Below the pieces are notes generated by a model. That model saw nothing but the letters and a program-made list of their open reading frames with translations. It ran no database searches and had not been told where the DNA came from. A stretch of DNA of 49,612 nucleotides, from the NCBI GenBank assembly GCA_009786985.1, contig WRGW01000109.1:1-49612 (forward strand). Reading direction: 5' to 3'. A program made the translations under genes and the position numbers. Below, piece after piece: positions 8,590 through 39,496 of the stretch. Position 1 is the stretch's first letter, and every line of letters starts with the position of its first letter. The stretch is from Oscillospiraceae bacterium (GTDB taxonomy: Bacteria > Bacillota > Clostridia > Oscillospirales > Ruminococcaceae).

Positions 8590-8700
8590 TAAACCTCCAC
8601 GGAAGCCAAACAAGATGTCCGCAAGCGGAGCTTTGCTTCGCTATAGGACATTGCCGATGGGAAAACTAACCATCACACGTTAGCTTCCGTGGAGGTTTGT
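8590..8700. repeat. large inverted repeat enclosing an inner palindrome; right arm encodes the C-terminus of the beta-propeller protein
   Basis: AAACCTCCACGGAAGC ... GCTTCCGTGGAGGTTT, with inner ATGTCC...GCGGAGC-TTT-GCTTCGC...GGACAT. Confidence 0.85.
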
Positions 8701-11189: not shown

Positions 11190-11738
11190 ATGGCTATTTT
11201 ATCTGGATTGATTGTATCAATAGACGCATTTTTTATCGGAATTTCGTTGGGATTACAGAAAAAGTTCAAATTCAGCTACCTTGTGTTCATTAACGCATTT
11301 CTACTTATTCTATGTATGGCTGGTTTTTTTATAGCTGGCAGGATTTATGAACACATTCCTTTTTCGCCAGATTTGATTGTGGGAGTGACTTTTATAACCC
11401 TCGGAATTTGGTATATTGCGAGCTATTTTGCAAAAAGTGCGTTTAAGAAACAAACAGCAGAAAAATCAAAAGAAATCACAAGTTCCGCTAAAACATTTGT
11501 GTTAATTGGGCTGGTGATGAGCTTTGAAGCTATGCTGATTACCACTGGTGTAACACTCACTTTTGGCGAAAGCTCGACAATTGCAATTCCGCTCACGATT
11601 GGATTAGCACATTTTGCATATTCGGCATTATCATTCTATCTATCAAGAATACGACGTGTTAGGCGTATTCCAGCGGTCTGGAGTAACGTTGTTTCAGGTC
11701 TATCTCTTATAGTTTATGGGAGCTTGGCGCTGTTATGA
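11190..11738 (+). CDS. MntP/YtaF-like membrane protein
   Basis: LSGLIVSIDAFFIGISLGLQ plus six hydrophobic segments; RBS GGAGG before ATG 11190. Confidence 0.75.
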   Translation: MAILSGLIVSIDAFFIGISLGLQKKFKFSYLVFINAFLLILCMAGFFIAGRIYEHIPFSPDLIVGVTFITLGIWYIASYFAKSAFKKQTAEKSKEITSSAKTFVLIGLVMSFEAMLITTGVTLTFGESSTIAIPLTIGLAHFAYSALSFYLSRIRRVRRIPAVWSNVVSGLSLIVYGSLALL

Positions 11739-12706
11739 TTCCTCGCCAAACAAACAAACGGATATTCGCCTGATTTTTCGAGTTTTGTGACAGCCGCTTT
11801 CGCAAGTTTTTCACAAGTGAAGGTACCAAAAACAGCACTCCCACTACCAGTCAGCGATGCGATGTCCGCACCTAAATCTTGGAGCTTGTAGCAGAGGTTT
11901 TCTATACGTTCATCAGCGTATAAAGCCTGAAACTCATTAGCGTAAAATTCGCAATTTACAGGCTTTTCCACGTAAGGCATAAAAAGCTCGGCACAGCCGA
12001 CTTTTGTTATGCCCTTGTTTGGCTTTCCGATTTTGTCATACAAAGAAAACGCAGTCTTGGTATCGCAAACAAAATTTGGTTGAACAATCACATAAAACGT
12101 GGGTGGTAAATCTGGCAGTGGCGTGATTTTCTCGCCGATTCCTTCGCACAAAGCATGTCCCCCTACGATTCCGAAAGGCACATCAGCACCAAGTTGTACT
12201 CCCATTTGAATAAGCTGGTCTTGACTAAAAAAATCATGACAAATTTCATTTAATCCTTTTAGAACAGTCGCTGCATTTGTGCTTGAACCACCTAATCCCG
12301 CCATAAGCGGGATTTGTTTTTTTATATGAATTGTTATAAGCGTGATATTGTCAAACAACGGCGATTCGCGTGCTTCGTGTAAGAAAAGTAATGCCGCACG
12401 ATGAGCAATGTTGTTAGAATCAGGGATTTTCCCTGCAATTTGCGAACAGTCACAGCTTACCTTAACTTTAGGTAGTAATCGAGTTCTATGAATAGTTATT
12501 AAGTCATCAATAGAGCGGGGATTTTGTCTACTGAGTAAAAAAACTTCTTTAGTTTTTTTTAAGCGTTTATATAGCATGATTTCGACTGTATCGCAAAGGT
12601 CGATTTCTTGCATTGTGGTACATAATAGGTGGTAGCCGTCTTCTCTGATACCGCAAATTTTTAAATCGAGATTTAATTTAGCGTAAGAGTAGAATTTGTT
12701 CATCAT
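11714..12706 (-). CDS. ispE: 4-diphosphocytidyl-2-C-methyl-D-erythritol kinase
   Basis: KFYSYAKLNLDLKI, PLMAGLGGSSTNAATVL, LTGSGSAVFG; contains an in-frame palindromic insert (11975-12025). Confidence 0.9.
   Translation of the reverse strand: MMNKFYSYAKLNLDLKICGIREDGYHLLCTTMQEIDLCDTVEIMLYKRLKKTKEVFLLSRQNPRSIDDLITIHRTRLLPKVKVSCDCSQIAGKIPDSNNIAHRAALLFLHEARESPLFDNITLITIHIKKQIPLMAGLGGSSTNAATVLKGLNEICHDFFSQDQLIQMGVQLGADVPFGIVGGHALCEGIGEKITPLPDLPPTFYVIVQPNFVCDTKTAFSLYDKIGKPNKGITKVGCAELFMPYVEKPVNCEFYANEFQALYADERIENLCYKLQDLGADIASLTGSGSAVFGTFTCEKLAKAAVTKLEKSGEYPFVCLARNHNSAKLP
11975..12025. repeat. 51-bp palindromic element, copy 1 (inside ispE)
   Basis: aggcataaaaagctcggcacagccgacttttgttatgcccttgtttggctt; one mismatch to 17201-17251. 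Confidence 0.95.
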
Positions 12707-16669: not shown

Positions 16670-16845
16670 CCAGAGTATGCCTTAGAGGGGGGAATTCACT
16701 TCCCACTATAAGGGTTATTTCGGTGAGGCAAGGTTCTTCAAGCTGTTTGTCGACTATGTGAAGTCGTCACCCCGAAGCTCTTGATGGCGAGTAGCTTGAA
16801 CGCATAAATTACAACACCGCTTCGTGTTAGAGCGGTGCTGTTTTG
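16670..16845 (+). ncRNA. candidate structured RNA downstream of rpmF (possibly 6S-like), ending in a terminator-type hairpin
   Basis: no ORF; long-range complementarities TATGC/GCATA, TTCAAGCT/AGCTTGAA, TTCGGTGA/TCACCCCGAA; terminal ACACCGCTtcgtgttagAGCGGTGCT followed by GTTTTGTTG. Confidence 0.35.
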
Positions 16846-16862
16846 TTGTCAGAGGAGGTCTA

Positions 16863-19250
16863 ATGAAACATTTTTTTGAACGCTTGAACCCTAAGCAAAA
16901 AGAAGCAGTCTTTCATACAGAAGGTGCACTCTTAATTATTGCAGGGGCTGGTAGCGGCAAAACTTCGGTTCTTTGTTGTCGAATCGCAAATATAATCAAT
17001 GAGGGGCTTGCTCTCCCATGGCAGATTTTAGCGGTGACATTCACTAACAAGGCAGCAGGTGAACTTAGAGAACGCCTGTCATCAATGAAAATAGAAAACG
17101 CTAAGGACATCCACGCTGGAACTTTTCATTCAACCTGTGTAAGGATTCTTAGAAACGGAATTGAGGGGCTTAATACACCAGAAGATTTATTTCAGACGTC
17201 AGGCATAAAAAGCTCGGCACAGCCGACCTTTGTTATGCCCTTGTTTGGCTTACCAATTGCGAGTGAAACTCTCCCAGTCGAGAATTTGCTTAACGATGGT
17301 TCTACTACTGTAGTGAGTGGCGGGTATCGCAAAGGGTTCACTATTTATGATACTGATGATTCGTTAAGATTGATTAAATCATGTATGAAAGACTTAAATA
17401 TTTCCGAAAAAGTGTATGCTCCCAAATCGGTGTTTCATAGTATATCGAGAGCGAAAGATTTTCTTGTTACTCCTAAATTTTTTGAGATTACTAATGAAAA
17501 TGGATTACGTGACTCTCATCTTGAAACGGCACAGAGGGTGTATTCGCTATATCAACAACGCTTAAAATCCGCCAATGCACTTGATTTTAATGACTTGATT
17601 ATGAAAACGGTTGAGCTTTTTGAGAAAAATCCAGACATACTTTCACAGTGGCAAAAAAAATTCAGATATATCATGGTTGATGAGTATCAGGATACTAACT
17701 ATGCACAATATCGTTTGGTATCGCTTCTTGCGGGAAAGAACGGTAATCTTTGTGTTGTGGGGGATGAAGACCAGAGCATCTACCGATTTAGAGGGGCAAC
17801 AATCGAAAACATCCTCTCGTTTGAAGAAGAGTTTAAGGCACACACAATCAAACTTGAGCAGAATTATCGCTCTACCCAGAACATACTTGGTGCTGCTAAT
17901 GGTGTGATTTGCAAGAACACACAACGTAAACCTAAAAAGCTCTACAGTACGATAGATGCTGGCGAGAAAGTCCAGCTACATATCTTGGCGAACGAACATG
18001 AAGAGGCTATGTTTATCTCGCGCGAAATCGAAAAAGGTAAAGGTAATGGCATTTCTTTCGGGAAAAATGCGGTGTTGTATCGAACTAATGCACAATCGAG
18101 AACGGTTGAATTAGGGCTGGCACGGGCATCGATTCCGTACAGAATAATCGGTGGCGTTCGATTTTATGAGCGTAAGGAAATCAAAGATGTAATTGCTTAT
18201 ATGAGCGTTCTTGACAATCCGTTTGATTTTATACGTTTTCGCCGAATAGTAAACGAGCCTAAACGCACAATTGGCGATGTTACGCAAATTGAAATCGAAA
18301 ATGCGTCAAACGAACTTGGGATTAGCCCTTTTGATGTGATGGCGACTGCTGACCAGTTTCCGTCCTTATGTAAAAAAGTTGGTGTTTTAAAAGAATTTGC
18401 TTCGGTATTCGGTGAATTGACTGAAATCTCAAACGATAAAAGCAAGAACCTGCCAGATTTAATTGACTCTGTTGTGAATCTGACGGGGTATAAAGCTATG
18501 CTTCAAAAGCAGGGCGAGGAAGGGGCTGAGCGCCTCCAAAATATCGATGAGCTAAAGTCCGCAGCGCTAAAGTTTGCAGAAGAAAACCCTGAATCGGGTT
18601 TGTCTGACTTTTTGGGTCAAGTAGCCTTAGCGTCTGATATGGACGATTATGAGCAGGGTGAAGATAGAGTTTCTCTGATGACAATTCATTCAGCTAAAGG
18701 GCTTGAGTTTGAACGTGTTTTTCTAATCGGGGCAGAGGAGAATCTGTTTCCGTCATTCAGGAGCGTTGCAAACCCTATGGATTTAGAAGAAGAACGCCGA
18801 TTGATGTATGTTGCAATTACGCGTGCTAAAACAATTTTACACATCATAACTGCAAAAGAACGGTTGTTATTTGGAATGACACAACGTAACGGCATTTCGA
18901 GATTTATAAAAGAAATTCCAGCCGACCACATTCAAATAAATGACCGTACCAGACGAGTTATTGCAACTTCTTCTAATAACACCAGTAGCAGCGATTTGCG
19001 AACACTCGAAAAATCGAGTACCCATTCGTCACACTCAAGACCACGCACAAGAATTGAAAGTACAAGAAGTACGCCCTCACAATTAGGTCTTACATTTACC
19101 GAAGGTGAGTGTGTTAATCACAAAGTTTTCGGTAAAGGAACGGTTTTGAGCGTTTCGGATATGGGTAATGATTCGTTATTAGAAATTGCGTTCGATAAAG
19201 TCGGTACTAAAAAAATCATGGCTAATTTTGCAAAAATCACAAAAGTTTAA
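16863..19250 (+). CDS. pcrA: UvrD/PcrA-type DNA helicase with about 50-aa insertion
   Basis: LNPKQKEAVFHTEGALLIIAGAGSGKTSVL, VDEYQDTNYAQYRL, GDEDQSIYRFRGA, VSLMTIHSAKGLEF, YVAITRA. Confidence 0.95.
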   Translation: MKHFFERLNPKQKEAVFHTEGALLIIAGAGSGKTSVLCCRIANIINEGLALPWQILAVTFTNKAAGELRERLSSMKIENAKDIHAGTFHSTCVRILRNGIEGLNTPEDLFQTSGIKSSAQPTFVMPLFGLPIASETLPVENLLNDGSTTVVSGGYRKGFTIYDTDDSLRLIKSCMKDLNISEKVYAPKSVFHSISRAKDFLVTPKFFEITNENGLRDSHLETAQRVYSLYQQRLKSANALDFNDLIMKTVELFEKNPDILSQWQKKFRYIMVDEYQDTNYAQYRLVSLLAGKNGNLCVVGDEDQSIYRFRGATIENILSFEEEFKAHTIKLEQNYRSTQNILGAANGVICKNTQRKPKKLYSTIDAGEKVQLHILANEHEEAMFISREIEKGKGNGISFGKNAVLYRTNAQSRTVELGLARASIPYRIIGGVRFYERKEIKDVIAYMSVLDNPFDFIRFRRIVNEPKRTIGDVTQIEIENASNELGISPFDVMATADQFPSLCKKVGVLKEFASVFGELTEISNDKSKNLPDLIDSVVNLTGYKAMLQKQGEEGAERLQNIDELKSAALKFAEENPESGLSDFLGQVALASDMDDYEQGEDRVSLMTIHSAKGLEFERVFLIGAEENLFPSFRSVANPMDLEEERRLMYVAITRAKTILHIITAKERLLFGMTQRNGISRFIKEIPADHIQINDRTRRVIATSSNNTSSSDLRTLEKSSTHSSHSRPRTRIESTRSTPSQLGLTFTEGECVNHKVFGKGTVLSVSDMGNDSLLEIAFDKVGTKKIMANFAKITKV
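17201..17251. repeat. 51-bp palindromic element, copy 2 (inside pcrA, opposite reading strand to copy 1)
   Basis: aggcataaaaagctcggcacagccgacctttgttatgcccttgtttggctt. Confidence 0.95.
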
Positions 19251-28368: not shown

Positions 28369-28501
28369 AGGCAACTTGAAGTCTCGTCTCGTCGAGATAC
28401 CCCGACGGGGAAATGAGCTTCAAGTCACATCCCGACTGGCAGAGCCAGTCGCACTGTGGCTCTCGTTTTGCGAATTCCCCCTCTGGGGGTATTCTTGTTT
28501 A
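28369..28501. repeat. family-2 dispersed element, copy 2, abutting the aroB stop codon
   Basis: GGCAACTTGAAG...CGTCGAGATACCCC-GAC-GGGG...CGACTGGC-AGA-GCCAGTCG...CCCCCTCTGGGGGTATTCTTGTTT. Confidence 0.75.
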
Positions 28502-29599
28502 GCTTTCCTCGCCCATTCCTATTCTAATAAATCTTGCCATTTCATTCATGCTAAAAGTTTTGAGGTAACAGTGTCCGATTTTCTCTGGCACTACTAAAGC
28601 AATACTGTCGCCAATACGTTTTTTGTCCGAAAAAGCGGCGGAAATTAGCTGTTCTGAAGTGAAATCACACTTACTCGGAAGGTTGTATCTTTTCACCATA
28701 TCGAGAACTTGTTTATAACAATCTTCGCTACAAAGATTCATACCAAACGCACCACGGCTGGCAATCACCATTCCGATTGCGACAGCACTTCCGTGAGAAA
28801 TGCTATAATTAGAACATTTTTCAATTCCATGGGCTTCGGTATGACCAAAATTCAAAAGCTGTCGGATTCCAGTGTCGCGTTCATCCTCGGCGACAATATC
28901 ACGCTTGATTATGACATTGCGTTTGATTACATCTTCGATTTTGTCACAAGTCGCTGTGATTTTGTTCTCGTGCAAAATCTGGAACAAATCCTCACTTCGG
29001 ATTATAGCGTGTTTGATTACTTCCGCCATACCATCAGCAAAAATGTAGTCTGAAAGTGTTTTTAGCGTATCATAATCGCAGATGACTATATCTGGTTGAT
29101 AAAAAGTTCCGACCTGGTTTTTACCGCCGTGGGTTCTGCTATCACCAATATTAATTGCTGTCTTACCGCCCACAGACGAATCCACCATAGAAAGTAAAGT
29201 TGTTGGGATTTGTACAAACTTAATACCACGTAAATAAGTAGACGCTGCAAACCCTGTCAAGTCACCAACTACCCCACCACCAAGTGCTACCGCAATATCG
29301 CTACGAATCAGGTTTTTTTCAGTGAATCGCTTTAAGCATTCGTGATAATTCTTAAAATTTTTAGAACGTTCACCCGCTTCTAATGTTTTTACTGAACTCG
29401 AAAAATCATTAAGTTTGAGCGATGAATTAACCGTTTTATGATACAACTTTGCAACATTATCATCAGTGATAATATAGGCTTTACTCTGACTGCTAACTCC
29501 ACAAACTTCAGCTATTTTGTCGCCACAAGTGTTTAGAAGCCCTTTTCCGATTACAACATCATAACTCTTAGAAGGTGCGTTTATTGACACAGTTGTCAT
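28499..29599 (-). CDS. aroB: 3-dehydroquinate synthase
   Basis: ALGGGVVGDLTGFAASTYLRGIKFVQIPTTLLSMVDSSVGGKTAIN. Confidence 0.96.
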   Translation of the reverse strand: MTTVSINAPSKSYDVVIGKGLLNTCGDKIAEVCGVSSQSKAYIITDDNVAKLYHKTVNSSLKLNDFSSSVKTLEAGERSKNFKNYHECLKRFTEKNLIRSDIAVALGGGVVGDLTGFAASTYLRGIKFVQIPTTLLSMVDSSVGGKTAINIGDSRTHGGKNQVGTFYQPDIVICDYDTLKTLSDYIFADGMAEVIKHAIIRSEDLFQILHENKITATCDKIEDVIKRNVIIKRDIVAEDERDTGIRQLLNFGHTEAHGIEKCSNYSISHGSAVAIGMVIASRGAFGMNLCSEDCYKQVLDMVKRYNLPSKCDFTSEQLISAAFSDKKRIGDSIALVVPEKIGHCYLKTFSMNEMARFIRIGMGEES

Positions 29600-38429: not shown

Positions 38430-38515
38430 AGCAAAACAAGAGTACCCCCCCGAAAGGCGGGCTTTGCCCGTCTGGAGTGGGGTATCTCGACGAAGCACTA
38501 TTTCAAGTTGCTTGA
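38430..38515 (+). repeat. family-2 dispersed element, copy 3 (possible short structured transcript)
   Basis: AGCAAAACAAGAGTACCCCCCC...CGGGCTTTGCCCG...GGGGTATCTCGACGAAGC...TTCAAGTTGC. Confidence 0.7.
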
Positions 38516-38560: not shown

Positions 38561-38634
<74 letters not shown>

Positions 38635-38788
38635 GAATAAATCTTAAACTTGAACTGTTTTATAAAATAAACGTGGTTCGTTTTTTTGATTTTCATGGAA
38701 ATGTTGTGCATTTTGAGATGAGATAACCCTCGTATCGGGAGTTAGTTGAAAAATATCGAAAACTTTTAATATTTTGTGATAAAAAGGG

Positions 38789-38817
38789 TTGACAAGTCCT
38801 AAAAGATGTGATATAAT
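38789..38817 (+). promoter_or_regulatory. promoter of candidate sRNA
   Basis: TTGACA-N17-TATAAT with TGA extension. Confidence 0.75.
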
Positions 38818-38823
38818 TACATT

Positions 38824-38920
38824 AGCACCAATCACTTGTTGTTGATAAAAAAGCTGTACGATTATAAATAATAGAAGTTTTAGCAAGCTGTCTTGAATAG
38901 ATGGCTTGCTTTCTTGTTTT
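38824..38920 (+). ncRNA. candidate small RNA (about 95 nt) with intrinsic terminator
   Basis: promoter directly upstream; AGCAAGC-tgTCTtgaatAGAtg-GCTTGCT followed by TTCTTGTTTT; no ATG-initiated ORF. Confidence 0.5.
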
Positions 38921-39060
38921 CGATGTTTGTGTTTTTGAAGCACGGTTTTTAGAGCCAGTTCAGTATCTCTAACGAAGCAAAAAAATATTTACAAATTCAA
39001 CCAATAAAAGTTTTTTTTTGAACTTTTTTCAAAAAAAACGAAAAAAGTTTCAAAAAACAC

Positions 39061-39089
39061 TTGACAATACAAAAATGATGTGATATAAT
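39061..39089 (+). promoter_or_regulatory. promoter upstream of tRNA-Cys region
   Basis: TTGACA-N17-TATAAT. Confidence 0.75.
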
Positions 39090-39133
39090 TATAGACGGTT
39101 AATTGATTATTGCAATTGTAATGTTCGGTTGTA

Positions 39134-39233
39134 ATGTTCGGTAACACCGCAGAGCTACCCTGCCCCCTCTCGCTTCGTTCGAGAGAACCGATGCAGTGCG
39201 TCTGGGGTATTACACCCGAACTTTCAATAAGTA
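39134..39233 (+). repeat. family-1 dispersed repeat, copy C
   Basis: AATGTTCGGTAACACCGCAGAGC...CTCTCGCTTCGTTCGAGAGAACCG...GGGGTATTACACCCGAACTTTCAATAA. Confidence 0.85.
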
Positions 39234-39283
39234 AATCATAAAGCATCAAGAAGAATCATAAAATGATTAGAGAACTGTTTGAC

Positions 39284-39354
39284 GGCGTCATGGCCAAGTG
39301 GTAAGGCATGGGTCTGCAACACCCTGATCCCCGGTTCAAATCCGGGTGACGCCT
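39284..39354 (+). tRNA. tRNA-Cys(GCA)
   Basis: GGCGTCA...CTGCAAC...GGTTCAAATCC...TGACGCC. Confidence 0.93.
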
Positions 39355-39423
39355 TGTCTATTTTCTATTTTTGAGTTCTTACAAATTATTTCATTGTCTT
39401 CTTATTAGTTGCAAATCAGATAA

Positions 39424-39496
39424 TCCTCAATAGCTCAGTTGGTAGAGCATGCGGCTGTTAACCGCAGGGTCGTTGGTTCGAGTCCAACTTGGGGAG
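39424..39496 (+). tRNA. tRNA-Asn(GTT)
   Basis: TCCTCAA...CTGTTAA...GGTTCGAGTCC...TTGGGGA. Confidence 0.93.

Follow-up and report, generated by a model that had tools for sequence, protein, structure and literature searches.

How can nearly the same palindrome lie inside two unrelated housekeeping genes, be read from opposite strands and leave both reading frames open? This question is raised by the stretch of DNA analysed here (the window, 49,612 nucleotides), which is contig C109 of genome G000 (1,812,795 bases, 1.81 Mb). A sequence-only reading of the window had described a selfish 51-bp palindrome tolerated in ispE and pcrA, and had likened it to the Rickettsia palindromic elements (RPEs).

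Two Copies of a Hairpin Element in ispE and pcrA

The 51-mer was found at both positions given for it, 11975-12025 and 17201-17251, with a T/C difference as the one mismatch, and its proposed palindromic fold is borne out by both copies, which fold as ssDNA with z-scores of -3.2 and -3.6 against shuffles. The repeat itself thus stands, but its 51-bp limits are slightly off, as aligned copies show a wider element that starts with the tag CG(T/G)C(A/G), at 11971 and 17197, and finishes with CTTGTTTGGC, at 12023 and 17249. Copy 1 (11971..12023, + strand) lies antisense inside ispE and has its tag mutated to CGTA, while copy 2 (17197..17249, + strand) lies in the sense direction inside pcrA and carries the tag CGTC; the stem GGCATAA..TTATGCC and the tail CTTGTTTGGC are common to both. 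The view that both strands are coding was also confirmed, since the ispE frame runs on the minus strand (KPNKGITKVGCAELFMP) and that of pcrA on the plus strand (SGIKSSAQPTFVMPLFGL), and both frames are open.

Both genes were examined for the possibility that the repeat residues are simply conserved among orthologues. The ispE gene (11714..12706, - strand, likely ATG start at 12706) encodes 4-(cytidine 5'-diphospho)-2-C-methyl-D-erythritol kinase, with a TIGR00154 match above the cut-off. The repeat residues of IspE are absent from the closest relatives, the sister genomes G003 and G006, in which about 22 amino acids (IGKPNKGITKVGCAELFMPYVEKP; 11966..12031, - strand, boundaries approximate) are without counterpart. 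Loop length varies naturally at this site, and other relatives have native loops about as long there, so that the argument from length depends on the two nearest relatives. A further insertion in IspE, of about 30-33 aa (KRLKKTKEVFLLSRQNPRSIDDLITIHRTRLLPK; 12458-12560, - strand), is missing from the 13 aligned relatives covering the region; it contains an A/T-rich palindrome (AAAAAAACT..AGTTTTTTT) and has no match in other sampled DNA of the genome.

The pcrA/uvrD-type DNA helicase gene (16824..19250, + strand) matches PF00580 and PF13361 above the cut-off, and its best NCBIfam match, TIGR01073, reaches 801 bits, under the 911-bit cut-off of that model. The repeat belongs to an in-frame insertion of about 50 aa (17169..17318, + strand; about 150 bp, residues ~116-165). 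In a comparison over 59 relatives, with no orthologue from G006 and G025, the relatives' matches end at residue ~116 and restart at ~164-167; a residue-level alignment of 15 relatives shows that all of them lack the block, and in the solved PcrA 1pjr a single residue takes its place. Within the 150 bp, only the middle third (17196-17251) is repetitive and the remainder is unique in the sampled DNA. With two thirds of the insert non-repetitive, its history must be more complex.

Common Ends and Variable Stems

The genome-wide search that the sequence-only reading had proposed was carried out with an 81-base query, which matched 17 places in the genome, 13 of them near full-length with 82-100% identity, so that the repeat recurs far beyond chance. 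The last 19 bases of the 51-mer were found again beside entirely different hairpins, and the 3' end CTTGTTTGGCTT, with at most one mismatch, occurred 213 times compared with 25 for the reversed control. The architecture that emerges is a 5' tag CG(T/G)C(A/G), followed by a variable hairpin and a 3' tail CTTGTTT(T/G)GC. In the sampled DNA, the stems enclosed by the same tag and tail begin with GGCATAA, ATGTCC, GATACCCC, AGCTTCGGGG, AGCAAAACAAAG, AGCTAATCCC, AGTTCTAAATGAG and others. Among 23 representatives with distinct left arms, 6.39 of 8 positions pair between the arms, as opposed to 5.29 after shuffling of the right arms (highest value among 500 shuffles, 5.78); the number of stem types is given as about 20, some of the 23 representatives being probably chance matches. 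Some 20 unrelated stems are therefore common to one set of ends: the sequence of the hairpin varies, while its self-complementarity stays.

The units measure about 27-64 nt and are arranged as singles, as head-to-tail arrays with a spacing of ~30-65 nt, as neighbours of opposite orientation and as nested composites. The minimal form, of about 27 nt (CGTCAAGCTAAAGCCCTTGTTTGGCT), occurs in the sister G003 in 29-nt tandem arrays. Within the window, three further elements were found, namely an intergenic one with a different stem (CGGCAATGTCC..GGACATCTTGTTTGGC; 8605..8656, - strand), one of the ATACCCC stem family (CGTCGAGATACCCC..CTCTTGTTTTGC; 38431..38492, - strand) between ORFs, and a composite in which one element is nested in another between long ORFs (28400..28503, + strand; tails at 28460-28471 and 28492-28503). 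Three + strand tRNA genes (38561-39496) adjoin the element at 38431-38492. An element has on average 3.49 of its six frames open, compared with 2.99 in dinucleotide shuffles (sd 0.10), although the copies are related and the difference is hence overstated. One stem family, AGCAAAACAAAGCCGAAGCACAGCTCCGTCTTTATTCTGCT (stretch L137 on contig C110, with several copies elsewhere), usually has TATTATAYCATA downstream, which resembles a -10 box, and copies of this family may serve as portable promoters.

Distribution of the Elements

The exact two-ended pattern occurs 74 times in G000 (control 1), 34 times in the sister G003 (1) and 13 times in the sister G006 (0), whereas in 57 other genomes of the genus and order there was no clear excess over background; the expansion is limited to the three sister genomes. 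The copies of this short DNA element, which forms hairpins and is apparently mobile, number well over a hundred in G000. An exact search of GTDB r220 with a 19-base piece of the tail gave one Polaromonas match, compatible with chance, in a collection that has one genome per species and may lack G000 itself and near-identical genomes. Spread by phages or plasmids was considered and rejected, as the phage and plasmid record collections contained no match to the element, the sole genuine viral-contig match is a contig of this genome, and two further viral-contig matches are due to chance, the hairpin being absent. The viral record IMGVR_UViG_2820387566_000001 (10,842 bp) has the same extent and left end as contig C54 of G000 and is very likely the prophage contig of G000 itself.

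Many short contigs start or finish inside elements, repeats being prone to break assemblies, and this speaks for an assembly or binning artefact in which a repeat was wrongly joined into genes, a concern already raised by the sequence-only reading. However, the two copies in ispE and pcrA are situated in the middle of the contig, between unique flanks, and preserve the reading frame, many other copies on many contigs likewise have unique flanks, the assembly is 98% complete with an estimated contamination of 0.02%, and the same architecture recurs in the genomes of two other species, the sisters G003 and G006. An artefact is thus hardly credible.

A strict catalogue lists 158 elements in about 1.04 Mb of sampled DNA, a non-random sample because its stretches, some of which overlap, were chosen towards elements, and 22 of the 158 lie within ORFs of at least 150 aa. 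This count comes from a strict ORF scan, used in place of a relaxed one that gave an excess of false positives; on visual inspection, a few ORFs were dropped because they looked spurious or like ordinary protein, including L146:2581-3594 and L286:13241-13984. The location of most copies outside long ORFs would suit host RNA signals, such as terminators or mRNA stabilisers, that were spread by selection and whose intragenic copies are rare accidents, and REPs elsewhere are often found near the 3' ends of genes (PMC3733652). However, the stem is not followed by a U-run, the expansion is confined to three sister genomes, and the arrays, the nesting, the asymmetric conserved ends and the invasion of a phage gene and an IS-like gene fit mobile DNA better, so that an origin as host signals appears unlikely.

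In-Frame Insertions in Further Genes

At least eight genes, among them some for DNA repair and protein synthesis, contain hairpins in frame, which would be read as extra amino acids; they are pcrA, ispE and at least six more. In threonyl-tRNA synthetase (ThrRS; contig C52), an in-frame insertion of 76 aa (residues ~318-393), made up of about four elements in two orientations, lies in the catalytic core directly before the FALRPMTCP motif and is missing in relatives and in solved ThrRS. RecF (contig C46) contains an in-frame array of three elements, which solved RecF lacks. In-frame elements are also present in an RluD-type pseudouridine synthase (contig C70) and a HAAS-domain protein (contig C112), and two in-frame copies each in a WbsX glycosyltransferase (contig C80) and a protein of 1150 aa (contig C49), while a YqbQ-like phage tail protein on a prophage contig (C54; stretches L245 and L294) carries SSSEQSPLSGAL as three tandem in-frame copies. 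Most host genes read the element antisense, and PcrA, which reads it in sense, is the clear exception. The earlier picture of two unrelated housekeeping genes tolerating a selfish palindrome is therefore supported and was understated, given a genome-wide family with about 20 stems and at least six further genes, with "selfish" being an interpretation. The description of the genome as Bacillota-like is plausible, because for PcrA, RecF and ThrRS the best homologues of solved structure are Bacillota proteins.

In the RecF array (stretch L233:3608-4879, contig C46), all three elements have the identical altered tail CTTGTATTGC, which suggests local duplication or conversion. A small gene next to recF (L233:3274-3621, contig C46), which has no Pfam match, starts with MENLVKQEYISEGESSC ahead of a RemB-like FALHLG start and has an element-like hairpin in this N-terminus.

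Translation through the inserts would follow from their open frames. Mobile hairpins within essential genes, and even within the catalytic core of ThrRS, could also be tolerated if the inserts were missing from the final protein, being either cut out of the RNA or passed over by the ribosome, and some fungal mitochondria contain hairpin bypassing elements that are left out in this way. A bypassed or spliced segment needs no open frame, however, and it counts against such removal or skipping that all genuine gene insertions are open and in frame, including the 76-codon composite of ThrRS and the three-element array of RecF. Open frames were in part a criterion of the search for gene insertions. 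The family to which the two window copies belong was, however, found by DNA alone, without such selection, and is open and in frame in 3 of 3 housekeeping genes (ispE, pcrA and the RluD type). In addition, no Rfam match, to an intron or otherwise, overlaps the copies. Removal or skipping is accordingly very improbable, and the inserts are best regarded as putative extra residues of the proteins.

Relation to Known Palindromic Repeats

RPEs are palindromic and dispersed, form several families and lie in frame in unrelated conserved protein genes (Ogata et al., 2000, as reviewed; PMC2229807, PMC10969869), and an RPE-bearing guanylate kinase was reported to be translated and active (PMC2229807). 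The elements described here share the in-frame insertion into unrelated conserved genes, here those for PcrA, IspE, ThrRS, RecF, an RluD-like enzyme and WbsX. RPEs of Rickettsia are, however, about 105-150 bp long with 12-bp terminal inverted repeats (PMC2229807, PMC10969869), in contrast to the present units of ~27-64 bp, whose tag and tail are asymmetric, which form head-to-tail arrays and in which the same ends enclose some 20 stem types. The proposed resemblance to RPEs consequently holds for behaviour and fails for membership, as unit size and ends differ. An exact-pattern scan over one genome per species gave no Rickettsia match, which is weak evidence against sequence similarity to an RPE family.

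CGTC-tagged REPs, which include RPE-4, RPE-6 and the Neisseria dRS3 (Di Nocera et al., 2013; PMC3733652), have a CGTC tag at one end, a hairpin, an unpaired 3' tail and no associated transposase, and comprise intragenic in-frame units (PMC3733652). Their host genes include those for UvrD/Rep helicases, tRNA synthetases and pseudouridine synthases (PMC3733652), classes that match the PcrA, ThrRS and RluD type found here, and most of the present copies carry CGTC or CGGC as tag (CGTA in the ispE copy). The stems of CGTC REPs are 8-9 bp and their loops 4-5 nt, with a 3-nt tail that is mostly CCA (PMC3733652), whereas our units span 27 to more than 60 nt with widely differing stems, and the tail is CTTGTTT(T/G)GC. 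Likewise, clusters of CGTC REPs are rare, head-to-head dimers predominate and head-tail dimers are negligible (PMC3733652), while head-to-tail arrays are frequent here. Since stem size, CCA tail and rarity of head-to-tail arrangements all differ, and since the five phyla that host CGTC REPs do not include Bacillota/Firmicutes (PMC3733652), our elements are a related variant rather than a member of this group.

GTAG REPs and REPINs are tagged single hairpins that also form dimers and clusters and have known intragenic copies (PMC3733652), all of which is seen here as well; the tag is different, and so is the complement of genes, as RAYT is absent. A search with PF01797 (Y1/HUH; RAYT, IS200/605), positive in E. 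coli and four other controls, found no match in G000, G003 and G006. MITEs of DDE transposons differ from the present elements, the ends of which are asymmetric and without terminal inverted repeats. TTNCC or TTAC seems to flank some copies, yet comparison with shuffles left no clear excess of matched flanking k-mers among 38 single copies, so that the search for a target-site duplication was negative. Integron attC sites, considered for their variable hairpin with a bulged arm, were rejected because the ends have no paired attC-type boxes and there is no integrase expansion.

By analogy, the elements can be taken to work like RPEs and intragenic REPs; what is new here is the lineage, the some 20 stem types on common ends and how deep within essential enzymes the insertions lie. 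Protein-coding palindromes were at first presented as peculiar to Rickettsia and were then found in REPs of several phyla. The present case is a compact one in a different lineage, with one set of ends for about 20 stem families, a 27-nt minimal form in a sister species and a clear boundary between species, as three genomes have the element and 57 lack it. Two questions become accessible to tests with it, namely what moves palindromes that have no transposase, and how much random peptide can be absorbed by essential enzymes such as ThrRS or RecF.

Mobility and Persistence in Genes

Very probably, the copies represent a short, non-autonomous mobile palindrome of the REP/MITE type, which persists in genes only where it is open and in frame. 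We infer its mobility from dispersal, nesting and absence in relatives, and its selfish character likewise; no sign of a benefit to the host was seen. The common ends, probably presented by a folded single strand, would be recognised by an enzyme acting in trans, which would insert copies at many sites. As to this mobiliser, no gene is repeatedly flanked by elements, which led us to reject a mobiliser gene located between them, and an expansion of tyrosine recombinases was rejected too, with just two hits in the genome, fewer than in most relatives. IS110 (PF01548) is absent from G000. We consider it possible, at somewhat less than even chances, that the mobiliser needs the common ends alone and the hairpin between them is interchangeable, that stem replacement or nesting still gives rise to new palindromes in this lineage, and that the enzyme is unrelated to RAYT, IS200/605 and IS110.

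Insertions would then be lost through selection if they shift the frame, carry a stop codon or lie elsewhere than in tolerant loops, and stop-free multiples of three would persist and be translated as extra residues. The persistence of copies in genes is best explained by such selection against frame-breaking and stop-bearing insertions. In contrast to the open insertions, two copies in an IS-like transposase lead to a stop near the C-terminus, by which the protein is truncated.
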